64,000 nt of DNA. It comes from Fuerstiella marisgermanici. Lineage in GTDB: Bacteria > Planctomycetota > Planctomycetia > Planctomycetales > Planctomycetaceae. A program made the translations under genes and the position numbers. The stretch spans positions 124,001 through 188,000 of the forward strand of contig NZ_CP017641.1 in assembly GCF_001983935.1 (NCBI RefSeq). Reading direction: 5' to 3'. How positions within the stretch are numbered: position 1 is the first letter of the stretch; each line of letters begins with the position of its first letter. The notes below the pieces were generated by a model, which worked only from the letters and a program-made list of their open reading frames with translations, searched no databases and was not told the origin of the DNA. Shown here one piece after another: positions 47,905-51,766 of this stretch.

Positions 47905-48654
47905 TCAACGTGGTGTGTCTCGATAGCGTCGATATTCGGGTAGCAGGCACCTGTCTACCCAATCCTGCCAGCCGTGATACATGACCGTTGCGGGATAATT
48001 GTCGTCCGATTCGGTTTGCGCAGACCAAGTGAGGTGAACGACTGCCACTCGATTGTCGCCTTGGATCGCAAACAATACATCGTCGCAATCTGTGCGTTTT
48101 CCAATAGCTTGAACAGTCACACCTCGTAGAGAATGCGGACTGAAAAGTTCCTTAGCAAGTTCGCTGTCGAGCGAATCTGCCACGTCGCCAACGTCTGCCC
48201 ACGGTGGAAGCCAATGAAACTCTGCGGCAATCTGAGTTGGTGTAACGTGACTGCCGTGCTTGTTGAATGCGAGAAGGGTCGATGTGTTCGGCCTGAAACG
48301 CTCGGTATTGAGGCCGAGGCCAGAGGTGGCGATGATCTTGCCCTGATAAATCCACGCTGTTTCTCCCCACCCGTGTATGTTTCCCTTGAATTCGGGAACC
48401 TCGTAGAGTGAAGGTGAGCCATCGACATCCGCCACGACAAATTCGAGGGAATCGGTTTCGGAGGTCGCAAGCACCTCGCTGAGCGCAGTAAACGCTTTCA
48501 CGGCACCCGCACTCCAGAATGCCATCAGGAACAGAACACCAACCTCAATGGAGTCGATGACTTTGGCATCGGCGTTTGGAAGATAGGTGACTTGATCCAT
48601 TGGTCGCTTCGACATCTTTGTGAGCCATTGAAGTTGGCTGTTGGGATCATCCAT
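47905..48654 (-). CDS. Thioredoxin-like protein without CxxC, last gene of the RNA-repair operon
   Basis: A protein of about 249 residues; the ATG at 48,654 follows ggaga. The segment VGVLFLMAFWSAGAVKAFTA, FVVADVDGSPSLYEVPEF and WGETAWIYQGKI suggests a thioredoxin fold in which the active-site CxxC is replaced (WSAGAV). The C-terminal half, containing VAVVHLTWSAQTESDDNYP, resembles a domain seen in hypothetical proteins of unknown function. It follows the HD-kinase gene by 33 bp, so it is likely co-transcribed with the RNA-repair genes, but a role in repair is not known. Confidence 0.6.
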   Translation of the reverse strand: MDDPNSQLQWLTKMSKRPMDQVTYLPNADAKVIDSIEVGVLFLMAFWSAGAVKAFTALSEVLATSETDSLEFVVADVDGSPSLYEVPEFKGNIHGWGETAWIYQGKIIATSGLGLNTERFRPNTSTLLAFNKHGSHVTPTQIAAEFHWLPPWADVGDVADSLDSELAKELFSPHSLRGVTVQAIGKRTDCDDVLFAIQGDNRVAVVHLTWSAQTESDDNYPATVMYHGWQDWVDRCLLPEYRRYRDTPR

Positions 48655-48687
48655 TGGCAATCTCCTGAGAAGAACGACGAGTACCAT

Positions 48688-49821
48688 TCAGGTAAGACGA
48701 GGCTTGTAAAGGCATTCTTCAATCACCAGACTGTGACACTCCAACCACGTCGGCGGCTCACACTTATCAGCCAGCTTATGGATCACCGGCTCGGGAACCG
48801 CCTTGCTCCGAGTTTGGTTTTGACGAAGCAAGTTCTCGAACGGCGGTTCGAGGTACACGACTTCGATCTGGGCGTTGTAATCGGCGAACAGGTCGAGCCA
48901 GCGACCACGGGTTTGTATCATCGTGTTCGTAGCGTTGAAGGCGAACGATTTTTTCGCTCTGAGCAATTCCCGACAGCGTTCTTTGGCAAGCTGGGCCACC
49001 GCTCCCTGATTGTCGGTCGGTTCGACATCCAGTTCACTACGGATGTCATCCAGCGAGACAATCGGAAGGTCGCTACGATTTCTGGAGAGCCATGTGTCCT
49101 TGCCGCTACCGGGAAGACCGGCCATCAACGTCACTGTGCAAGAGAAGTCTTCGTGCGGAACGTAGTGCAGGTTGGGTTCCCGCAGGCGAAAGAACGTGAA
49201 ACGAGCATGATCGGTGGCGAACGGATACGGCTGGTCATAGCAGCCAGCCTCTTCCGCCATGAGCTTCCAGTAGTGCAGATTCTCCTCGGGCCGAGTCATG
49301 GAGTCGGTGTCTCGGCCACGAGTGTCAGCCAATGCGAACAGGTATAGCAGTCGGTTGTTGACCAGCCACGACAACCGAGCGACTTCATGCGTTGGCTCGT
49401 CACGTTCGAGTAGAAACGCCGGTCGCCCGTGATAACGGACCAGCCGGGCGATCTCCTCACGAGTTGTCAGGTCACATCCGAGATCACGCAGAACCGAACG
49501 GGCGACGTGTTCACCTTTGACAGCGTGCTTTGGTGAGCGGACTCGACCAGTCTCGGGATCAACCTCGGTGGTCAACGGCTTGGCGACATCGTGAAACAAA
49601 GCGGTGAAGATTAGAACGATCTGCTCGTTTGGTGCGAGAGACGGCCACTCATCCAGTTCGAGCAGTTGCTCAAGGACCATCTTCGTGTGGGTCCAGACAT
49701 CGCCTTCGGAATGCCATTCGGCATCCTGTGCGCAGTCCGACATCGCCTGACACCACGGTTGGCTTTCTGCCCATGCCGTGATGTCCTCCAGCGACGACTG
49801 TTTGAGTTGCTCCCAGTTCAT
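48688..49821 (-). CDS. HD-domain phosphohydrolase fused to polynucleotide-kinase-like P-loop domain
   Basis: This 377-residue protein has an N-terminal HD domain (His45 in WTHTKMV, His77-Asp78 in [10 protein letters not shown], plus [10 protein letters not shown] and [10 protein letters not shown]). The C-terminal kinase domain has Walker [16 protein letters not shown] near residue 234, [10 protein letters not shown] and [20 protein letters not shown] plus kinase fusions are expected to remove 2',3'-cyclic or 3' phosphates and phosphorylate 5' ends of broken RNA. The gene overlaps the RNA ligase by 4 bp. End-healing for the adjacent ligase is inferred. Confidence 0.85.
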
Positions 49822-50558
49822 GACCAGATATCCACGTCATCCGCCAGTTGATTTGGCATCATCTGCTGATGCTGCCAGTGTGTGCTTTGCTTGATCTTCT
49901 CGACGAACTCGGGACGCACAAACTTGGCTCGTCCCGTGACAGCGCCGTTTGCCTCAGTTCGCAGGTACACACCTTCCATCAGATTGTCAGGTCGATTAGT
50001 GATCGGGTTCTCAAAGTGGCTGTCGAACAGAGATGGCCCGATCAGGACTTCAAGGTTGTCACGAATCACCGTGCCCGTATGAACGACGGGAACTGTCTGG
50101 ATTCCCGTTCCAGCGAGGAGTGACAGTCGTTGCTCAAGATCGAGGAAGACTTCCTGATCCTTGTCGTAAATGTCGAACTCGAAGAAGTAGTGTGTCAGCT
50201 TCCGGTAGTGGATCGAGTGTCGGGCGTAGACCCATTCCCCGAACAAGAGGAAGCGGTTCTGCAACTGCTCCTCCAGCACATGTCGCTTCGCTGCCGTCCA
50301 CTGCTTGAACAGGTCGTACTGCGGGTGCATTCCCTCGGTGATGAGATGGCCCCGGCATTGCAGGACCATCTCGCCGGTGTCCGAAAAGTGAATGCCGACG
50401 TTTGTGCCGTCGATCTTCTCCTCGACGATCAGCGACTCGTCGGCGATGAATGCCTTCGACTCCTCTTCGCTGAGATGCTTGTCGTCGTCTGTCCCCTTGG
50501 ACCCAAACAGATGGGGCGTGCGGGGGTACTTGGTGAAATCACCGTGGGAAGTACCCAT
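49818..50558 (-). CDS. RNA ligase (ATP-dependent nucleotidyltransferase)
   Basis: A ligase of about 246 residues. The ATG at 50,558 follows aaggag; an upstream in-frame start would overlap the preceding gene. The nucleophilic lysine is Lys48 in [13 protein letters not shown] (motif I). Motif III-like [11 protein letters not shown], motif [11 protein letters not shown] and motif [11 protein letters not shown] follow. This pattern fits the Rnl/RNA_ligase family sealing 3'-OH/5'-phosphate RNA ends. Its neighbours supply the kinase and end-trimming functions. The order and overlaps suggest a single repair pathway. Confidence 0.9.
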
Positions 50559-50559
50559 G

Positions 50560-51336
50560 TCAGGCTCCTTTTTTCTGGGTCTGGGAAACGAGCGACCGCA
50601 CAAATTGGCCGTACTCGTTCTTCATGGGTAAGTCGAGGTCGGAAGAAATCCGACGCCGACGAGCCGTGACTTCTTCCTTCGTGATCGGATTCACCGAACA
50701 TTTATCGTACTCTTTCCAGTACAAACCGACGCCTCGCTTCTGCCAGTTTGGGAGATCATTGAAGTTGATCCCATACTGAAACAGCAACTCGTTCTTCTGG
50801 CTCACCGACCGTCCAATCAGTTGCTTCGTAGCCTGCTGCTCATCTTGGCCATCCTTACGCAGCGTCCAATAGCACCATGCGCTCAAGGCATTTCTAGCGG
50901 CGTCCTCGTTTCGCCAACGGAAGTAATCCACGACCAGTTCCACTGTCGGTAGTTGCGAGATGCGGCAGTCGAAGCAGGCTGGTTGACCCAGCTTTAGCGA
51001 GAACTGCGCACTGGCCTCACCTGCCAGCGTCGAGTTGTACTTTCGCAGCTTCCTGCCAAAGAGTTGCTCCTCCGGGTCCAAGAGCAATGAAATCTCGTCG
51101 CTCTCCGTGTAGGCATACAACACCCGAAAGCCGCAGGTCATCAATGACTCAGTGGTAGACACCATCAGGTCTCGAAACCGCTCGTCGAACGGAGCTTCGA
51201 ATTGGCAAACCTCTTTGGTCAATCGGGTGAAGCTCCGACCGTCCAAACGGGCCACCATGAACAAGCTCGGCAATACGCACAGGTCAGCGCCAGTCTCAAA
51301 GACCCGCATCTTGTTGTCGAGATCATCAAATTTCAT
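50560..51336 (-). CDS. Thg1-like 3'-5' nucleotidyltransferase (reverse polymerase)
   Basis: This 258-residue protein belongs to the tRNA-His guanylyltransferase/Thg1-like family, the only known polymerases that add nucleotides to RNA 5' ends in the 3'-5' direction. Metal-binding motifs are [10 protein letters not shown] (Asp32) and [10 protein letters not shown] (Asp80-Glu81). Further conserved stretches are [31 protein letters not shown] and [21 protein letters not shown]. It overlaps the kinase gene by 11 bp and is next to the ligase gene. Thg1-like proteins can repair truncated tRNA 5' ends, which fits a broken-tRNA rescue operon. Confidence 0.92.
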
Positions 51337-51766
51337 CGTTCCACTCCTCGACGACGAAACCGTCTTCCGTCAATCGGACGTATTTCAGTGCGTCGAAGCC
51401 TTCTTTGAATGTTGGCAGTTCCAGCTTCGTGGCAGTGGACAGGATGCCCACCTCGGGTACTGGTCCAGTCCGTTGCTGATTCCGTGTGAGACACTCCTCA
51501 GCTTTCGACCGGAAATAAATCCCCACGACCGAATACTTGGCCGTCTTCGCAACGTCGATGTACTTCGCTCGCTCCTCACGAGTCGGATTCGTGTTGTCGA
51601 TGACGAACGGCTGCTGGGTCTCCAAACATGCTGCGAGCAGTCGCCGCTCTCGATTTCGAGTCCGCAACAGGTCGAGGCTGATGCGAACGTGCGTCGAGAA
51701 GAACCGTTCCTTGAAGAAGGAAGATTTCCCCGACGCTTGCAGACCGATGAACACCACCGCCTCCAT
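51326..51766 (-). CDS. Polynucleotide 5'-kinase-like P-loop protein
   Basis: This 146-residue kinase has Walker A FIGLQASGKSSFFKERF at residues 6-22, Asp32 in RISLDLLRTRN, FVIDNTNPTREER near 54 and a lid-type arginine region, the pattern of T4 Pnk-like kinases. It is the first gene of the five-gene repair operon. A gagg ribosome-binding site precedes the ATG. No phosphatase domain is fused, unlike T4 Pnkp. Confidence 0.85.
   Translation of the reverse strand: MEAVVFIGLQASGKSSFFKERFFSTHVRISLDLLRTRNRERRLLAACLETQQPFVIDNTNPTREERAKYIDVAKTAKYSVVGIYFRSKAEECLTRNQQRTGPVPEVGILSTATKLELPTFKEGFDALKYVRLTEDGFVVEEWNDEI

Follow-up and report, generated by a model that had tools for sequence, protein, structure and literature searches.

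The question of why bacteria keep Thg1-like proteins (TLPs), members of a 3'-5' polymerase family, is raised in a concrete form by a locus of the planctomycete Fuerstiella marisgermanici. In the window analysed here, i.e. a stretch of 64,000 nucleotides (positions 124001-188000 of contig NZ_CP017641.1) within a single-contig genome of 8.92 Mb, a minus-strand operon packs the gene for a TLP together with genes for a polynucleotide kinase-like protein (PNK1), an ATP-dependent RNA ligase (Rnl) and a protein that fuses an HD phosphohydrolase to a polynucleotide kinase (HD-Pnk). Based on the families, order and relatives of these genes, the cassette probably repairs cleaved tRNA, and appears to have been acquired horizontally and to have partly decayed. 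Such a cassette would offer a testable answer to the opening question, namely that the polymerase is kept for rebuilding the 5' ends of broken tRNAs.

The four enzyme identities proposed in an earlier, sequence-only reading of the window stand, as all four families were matched in a Pfam search (Table 1). The catalytic motifs listed in that reading are likewise kept in relatives: D32 (98%), D80 and E81 of the Thg1 protein stand at no less than 97% conservation in an alignment of 52 sequences, and the residues G8..G13, K14 and D32 of PNK1 (44 sequences), K48, D50 and G51 of the KxDG nucleotidyl site of the ligase (23 sequences), and H77, D78 and G235..K241 of HD-Pnk (24 sequences) are each conserved at a level of at least 97%, with the later ligase motifs E108, E195-G196 and K212 also conserved. 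Loss of catalytic residues on alignment, named beforehand as one outcome that would speak against a repair role, was not seen. HD-Pnk, which is reportedly the name in use for such proteins and is said to have been the subject of a study in Runella, has its HD domain at the N terminus and its kinase at the C terminus of one protein, with the HD and P-loop residues both present. Judged by matches to solved structures, the window Thg1 protein appears nearer to archaeal and bacterial TLPs than to eukaryotic Thg1, its best solved relative being 5axk ('Thg1 like protein', 2.5e-33), with 3otb, presumably the human Thg1 structure, at 2e-20. The core junctions are, in order, an 11-bp overlap, a 1-bp gap and a 4-bp overlap, with the ATG at 48654 lying 33 bp further on; the tight packing first described is thereby borne out, except that its overlap of '0' is a gap of one base, because the ligase starts at the ATG at 50558 and not at the TTG given in the list of open reading frames (ORFs). 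The window operon showed no Macro gene, and the five operon proteins and the products of the upstream ORFs u1 and u2 had no match in PADLOC.

Table 1. Features of the repair locus and its surroundings, in window coordinates
Feature	Position	Strand	Remarks
Zinc-ribbon ORF (znr)	52888..53355	-	44% relative upstream of SEC-C in L081
ORF u2	52581..52940	-	61% relative upstream of SEC-C in L081; no Pfam match
ORF u1	52189..52584	-	48% relative in L081; 30% relative in L077
Short leader, 18 residues	52050..52106	-	Stop overlaps SEC-C start; 7-T run here
SEC-C ORF, 55 codons, ends TTT-TGA	51886..52053	-	PF02810 1.3e-9
+1-frame extension DGVNRDHYF-stop behind SEC-C UGA	51858..51887	-	Coding pattern across 73 loci
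Intrinsic-terminator hairpin and T-rich tail	51787..51829	-	13-bp stem 51829-51798
PNK1, P-loop polynucleotide kinase-like	51326..51766	-	PF13671 (AAA_33) 7.4e-15
Thg1-like protein (TLP), 3'-5' polymerase family	50560..51336	-	PF04446 7e-32; PF14413 (Thg1C) 1.1e-16
ATP-dependent RNA ligase (Rnl)	49818..50558	-	PF09414 1.6e-35
HD-Pnk, HD phosphohydrolase fused to polynucleotide kinase	48688..49821	-	HD 3e-8; AAA_33 6.3e-21
Fifth ORF	47905..48654	-	One relative, L003, 56% identity
Truncated hen1, first 24 codons	47824..47895	-	83% identity to L003 Hen1 residues 1-24
Insertion sequence cutting hen1	46538..47826	+	DDE transposase 46640-47812, PF13808 and PF01609
Serine recombinases or parts	37669-39627 (large), 54910-55770, 55858-57357		
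Phage capsid gene	35865-37154		
tRNA-Pro	57338-57412		

A search for the same gene order in other genomes, which had been suggested along with the sequence-only reading, recovered the contiguous block PNK1-Thg1-Rnl-HDPnk in eight other planctomycete loci (L003, L005, L007, L010, L058, L123, L124 and L166, with L122 treated as the same record as L005), while L006 and L015 hold Thg1-Rnl-HDPnk with no kinase detected. Two collections of Thg1 loci, which may have species in common, bear on the kinase. Within the first, consisting of 26 loci on contigs of bacterial assemblies that encode a relative of the Thg1 protein, the nearest of these relatives being planctomycete proteins, the kinase lies directly upstream of Thg1 in 22, and one of the four exceptions, L006, starts at a contig end; within the second, a sample by phylum in which 28 of 392 genomes matched and 19 loci were retrieved for their neighbourhoods, a kinase stands beside Thg1 in 15 loci, some of these kinases being partial. 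Synteny of the core is far above chance. In Lachnospiraceae, Agitococcus and a deltaproteobacterium, the kinase-Thg1 pair is present with neither ligase nor HD-kinase, and PNK1-Thg1 is therefore a separable module.

That the Thg1 protein performs ordinary G-1 addition to tRNA-His, and that its neighbours are mobile-island cargo with no connection to it, is very improbable. The name of its Pfam family suggests that job, but both tRNA-His genes found in a pattern search of the genome (pattern-matching genes only) encode G-1 and C73, as read, making the ordinary task unlikely; the pair with the kinase is, moreover, conserved across phyla, and seven other species of the genus lack both the Rnl gene and the SEC-C gene described below, Thg1 not having been searched for there as a set.

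A role in tRNA repair for bacterial Thg1 proteins was predicted in 2010 by authors whom we take to be Anantharaman, Iyer and Aravind. The neighbourhoods described in that work resemble the window in having Thg1 beside a P-loop kinase and, in some cases, an RNA ligase or Macro gene; HD-Pnk, the fifth ORF, the SEC-C and terminator leader, and linkage to Hen1, Pnkp and RlaP are unmentioned in the accessible parts of the paper (PMC2904730; this and the other papers cited are drawn on for their accessible parts). The repair logic has been restated in a review of jumbo phages (PMC7824862). An operon of Deinococcus radiodurans, DRB0098-DRB0100, also contains an HD-kinase fusion with an ATP-dependent ligase-like protein, but it has a Macro-like gene of its own and Thg1 is unmentioned in the part of the source available (PMC1997131). 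Hence the suggestion that this set of genes may be undescribed needs narrowing: from what these sources contain, its Thg1-kinase-ligase and HD-kinase/ligase portions were predicted or known, whereas the set as a whole seems to combine known parts in a new way.

The clusters of relatives reach beyond the core, as they also hold Hen1, Pnkp, two RlaP nucleotidyltransferases (PF10127), a NIF-type phosphatase (PF03031) and a 325-aa protein, and the neighbour genes in L009 and L137 encode what we take to be SIR2-like proteins. RlaP recurs in counter-RNase repair systems (PMC6514570). Thg1 (28 genomes) and Hen1 (38 genomes) are found together in 10 of 392 genomes against 2.7 expected (hypergeometric 8e-5, a value that ignores kinship, includes the own genome and takes two samples as identical from shared handles). 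F. marisgermanici itself has a second repair locus (L077, 3990461-4003729), in the order SEC-C, ADP-ribosylglycohydrolase (PF03747), Rnl, HD-Pnk, PTH2, a relative of u1 and one more ORF; its Rnl and HD-Pnk are 78% and 77% identical to those of the window, and its PTH2 passes the TIGR00283 cut-off.

At its 3' end, the operon had been read as closing with a thioredoxin-like gene, i.e. the fifth ORF. Beyond that ORF, 24 codons at 47895-47824 encode the peptide MLLTISTEHKPASDLGFLLHKHP, the remnant of a hen1 gene, and the relative L003 continues at this point with Hen1 (742 bits for TIGR04074; cut-off 340) and then a large ORF that passes the Pnkp model TIGR04075 (792 bits; cut-off 750) though it is incomplete at the end of the stretch. 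Thus the operon did not end where it had been thought to, and L003 would represent the intact continuation of the cassette. Membership of the fifth ORF in a conserved gene set was not upheld either, in that a relative is present in L003 only, among the loci of three neighbourhood sets. Nor did the redox-dead thioredoxin fold ascribed to its product find confirmation, as it has no Pfam family at gathering level and its predicted structure is a poor model (pLDDT 43.7). What cuts hen1 short is an insertion sequence bounded by inverted repeats of 16 bp (46538-46553 and 47811-47826). On its far side lies a DEAD/ResIII-type helicase ORF (45100-46539), probably truncated, with its stop codon within the terminal repeat; because no target duplication was visible by eye in the flanks and the helicase ORF ends inside the other repeat, a deletion adjoining the insertion sequence is likely. 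No other Hen1 was found in the genome, one weak methyltransferase match aside, and no Pnkp above the family cut-off, seven weaker partial matches aside. The intact pairing of hen1 and pnkp in one operon is therefore absent from the window and present in L003, and the window cassette is truncated and partly decayed. RNA repair by Pnkp/Hen1 and by Pnkp1-Rnl-Hen1 is known in bacteria, and the likeness to it lies in the true Hen1 and Pnkp of L003 and other relatives' clusters and in the hen1 start retained here; the differences are the truncation of hen1, the lack of a Pnkp over cut-off, and the addition of a separate Rnl, HD-Pnk and PNK1-Thg1 (PMC4411300).

Further evidence on the substrate comes from the small SEC-C ORF upstream of PNK1. 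Relatives of this ORF were found in 107 of 397 genomes of the class at E values no higher than 1e-8, with the weakest matches falling on parts of long ORFs, and several copies have internal stops. Strong places (E <=4e-14) number 98, two of them in the own genome, and the 96 others yielded 68 distinct loci for neighbourhood counts, 8 of these stretches being only 3.2 kb long. In 35 of the 68, a repair-linked gene lies no more than 700 nt downstream of SEC-C on its strand, the first such gene being Rnl in 14, PNK1 in 9, RlaP in 3, NIF, Hen1 and ADPRH in 2 each, and the 325-aa family, HD-Pnk and SIR2 in one each; NIF (the sole repair-linked gene in L109), the 325-aa family and SIR2 were scored as repair-linked because they recur in these clusters. 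Counting L148 and L150, whose repair genes lie farther off, brings the total to 37; the weak ADPRH match of L161, at a distance of 7 kb, was left out. Of the 31 remaining loci, 10 (L118, L136, L143, L144, L151, L154, L155, L159, L160 and L161) lie in stretches with 5 to 34 tRNA genes, as against none of the 37 repair-linked loci (Fisher 1.5e-4, kinship ignored), five of which have a single tRNA gene. As a rough control, any tRNA gene at all occurs in 3 of 45 Thg1 loci. In seven SEC-C loci, tRNA-Cys is the first tRNA gene met in the 400 nt downstream, and in the array loci L143, L151, L154, L159 and L160 it comes directly after SEC-C. Since SEC-C loci split in this way between repair genes and tRNA arrays, tRNA is the suggested substrate.

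For the mode of action, the substrate, reaction order and regulation are inferred, and the roles of HD-Pnk, ligase, PNK1 and TLP are those expected of their families. A cut by a ribotoxin or anticodon nuclease would leave a 2',3'-cyclic phosphate and a 5'-OH, whereupon the HD domain of HD-Pnk would clear the 3' end and its kinase phosphorylate the 5' end, and the RNA ligase, taking AMP from ATP on K48, would seal the break. PNK1, as a module with the TLP, would phosphorylate the 5'-OH end; the TLP would then adenylylate it and, with the facing strand of the stem as template, restore missing 5' nucleotides ahead of the ligation step. Complete relatives also carry Hen1, expected to act in 2'-O-methylation of the 3' terminus, together with Pnkp and RlaP. 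Bacterial and archaeal TLPs are described as favouring 5'-truncated tRNA (PMC6471195). The case for RNA, and specifically tRNA, repair is strengthened because relatives link Hen1, Pnkp and RlaP, because L077 adds ADP-ribosylglycohydrolase and PTH2, and because SEC-C alternates with tRNA arrays. The same linkage to Thg1, Hen1, RlaP, PTH2 and tRNA arrays makes it improbable that the HD-kinase and ligase instead heal and seal DNA breaks with Thg1 as a passenger. That idea draws on a weak profile match of the ligase to a solved ATP-dependent DNA ligase (E 0.0045; the single sequence matched no solved structure), and on the Deinococcus HD-kinase operon, which was studied as DNA repair and whose kinase phosphorylates a DNA oligonucleotide, although its proteins gave no DNA ligation (PMC1997131).

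Against repair of cleaved tRNA by this cassette, several points have to be set. Its 3' end is damaged, and in one of the eight syntenic loci, L058, the Thg1 match holds an in-frame stop. The hypergeometric and Fisher values take no account of kinship, and the genome sample includes the own genome; 12 of the 68 SEC-C loci, all repair-linked, belong to one genus, so that the counts overstate independent events. Moreover, for 21 of the 68 the stretch lacks repair genes and holds fewer than five tRNA genes, three of these loci having 1-3 tRNA genes and four having <2.1 kb downstream; in 12 loci without repair genes, the early downstream ORFs look unrelated (by eye, with no family search). Finally, a look for co-occurring anticodon nucleases found no AAA_13 (PrrC/RloC-type) gene in the genome, no other nuclease family having been searched. 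The initial proposal that the operon rescues tRNAs cut by anticodon nucleases, perhaps shielding its island or a phage, is thus strengthened in its repair component by the linked RNA enzymes, while the nucleases and the protected party are still conjectural.

Horizontal acquisition of the cassette is supported, because Rnl is absent from the seven congeners and insertion sequences and serine recombinases lie nearby. The mobile-island setting described from the start is in line with this, with recombinases and insertion sequences in the vicinity and the ligase in 1 of 8 species of the genus. Near the operon are both the DDE insertion sequence and a transposase with an integrase core, which is presumably of the IS3 type. 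A phage-like stretch (30300-39627) further includes an int-alpA RNA (30300-30365) and an AEP primase with an AAA ATPase (31772-34009). Phage T4 Pnkp/Rnl1 protects the phage against a host defence that cuts tRNA, and a cassette of this kind might in the same way shield an integrated element or phage, rather than the cell. For the window, this counter-defence role is compatible with tRNA repair, and the serine recombinases, insertion sequences and capsid gene nearby are in keeping with it, as are distant phage relatives of Rnl (203 records) and TLP (111), all at <60% identity; it is nevertheless rather unlikely, given that viral contigs had no match to the Thg1 peptide patterns, that no phage relative exceeded 60%, and that the 26 close Thg1 loci sit in contigs of bacterial assemblies.

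The leader of the repair genes may bear on how they are regulated. Across 73 distinct SEC-C sequences (72 under another duplicate removal), the SEC-C body ends on TTT in 68 cases, on CTT in 3 and on some other codon in 2, and the following codon is TGA in 67, CGA in 5 and TGT in 1. Beyond this point, the +1 frame reads DGVNRDHYF or something near it, with variable third positions and the same direction in 73 of 73; its entropy by codon position (0.46/0.42/1.10) parallels that of the SEC-C body (0.53/0.49/1.20). It is very likely, based on this pattern, that a conserved SEC-C C terminus is reached via a programmed +1 frameshift, as in release factor RF2. The site resembles the RF2 (prfB) consensus YTT-TRA-C in type and in its one shift direction, but differs in belonging to a SEC-C protein, in being mostly TTT-TGA with some TTT-CGA or CTT-TGA, and in having a probable second, N-terminal site (PMC3711429). 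The same source lists a cluster named 'Preprotein translocase subunit SecA', which may or may not correspond to the SEC-C family and where frameshifting may occur alongside coupling (PMC3711429).

At the N-terminal junction, 64 of the 73 loci read TTY-GA in the SEC-C frame, and in the frame one base back these 64 read TTT (63) or ATT (1), then CGA (49) or TGA (15); a start codon lies upstream in that frame in 54 of the 64, some of the ORFs being short and probably spurious. Under a separate start-site rule, by which some starts are clearly misplaced, 65 loci were tabulated: relative to SEC-C, the leader ORF is in the +1 frame in 45 of them, in the +2 frame in 16 and in the same frame in 4. A further 8 loci stayed unassigned. 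Codon entropy of the leader (1.17/1.11/1.63) is noisier and keeps the coding order, and a second +1 site probably joins leader and SEC-C in most loci. In the +2 class, ten loci, the window among them, have a run of seven Ts at this junction with no fit to a +1 shift, which could reflect slippage, decay or sequence error. Histidine attenuation through a His-rich leader peptide was considered and dropped, as leader peptides vary among loci.

Between SEC-C and PNK1 lies a hairpin predicted at -25.3 kcal/mol (z -4.5), with its stem ending 31 nt ahead of the kinase start. Terminator-like hairpins occupy this position in 21 of 40 loci, selected for having a repair-linked gene downstream, versus 2.45 expected from shuffles; the same rule found none in the other 19, including most Rnl-first loci. 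With the next gene 20-50 nt past the hairpin, as in the window, read-through transcription of the repair genes is the simplest reading. However, since some SEC-C loci without repair genes show similar hairpins by eye, the structure may simply end the SEC-C transcript. A promoter scan of the leader found none, which says little. Transcription would probably start upstream of SEC-C and pass the terminator, leaving the repair genes attenuated and perhaps tied to translation.

A more speculative proposal, which we regard as possible though doubtful, is that SEC-C serves as a translation-coupled switch for tRNA damage. To yield the complete zinc protein, a ribosome would need one or two +1 slips, at UUU-UGA or UUU-CGA; cut tRNAs would slow decoding or alter termination and so change slippage; and the output, via the terminator or the protein, would be the repair enzymes or, in other planctomycetes, a tRNA bank. 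One sensor module would then have two outlets, repair or replace. Anabaena offers a precedent in which a tRNA array and an RNA ligase share one regulator: TrcR governs the 26-gene array and rtcB under translational stress; the ligase family and the regulator are different, and 'SEC-C' is absent from the main text of that source as available (PMC10272220). If confirmed, the SEC-C leader would be a recoded gene family through which faults in translation are tied to the repair or replacement of tRNAs, and its frameshift sites lend themselves to simple tests. No paper on a SEC-C gene with a frameshift, RNA repair or tRNA arrays was among the matches listed in a search of the open-licence literature.

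Some minor observations concern the distribution of SEC-C and the ORFs above it. The znr product has no Pfam family at cut-off, its best matches being zinc-ribbon models. A viral origin by way of SEC-C was rejected, in that the six viral contigs matching the DNA pattern were all other SEC-C contexts without the extension; they had 0 to 6 tRNA matches each (5 records searched). On a plasmid of Candidatus Manganitrophus (Nitrospirota; L212, CP114562.1), a decayed SEC-C copy that keeps the leader-TGA junction precedes a SIR2 family gene and two genes for ATP-binding proteins.

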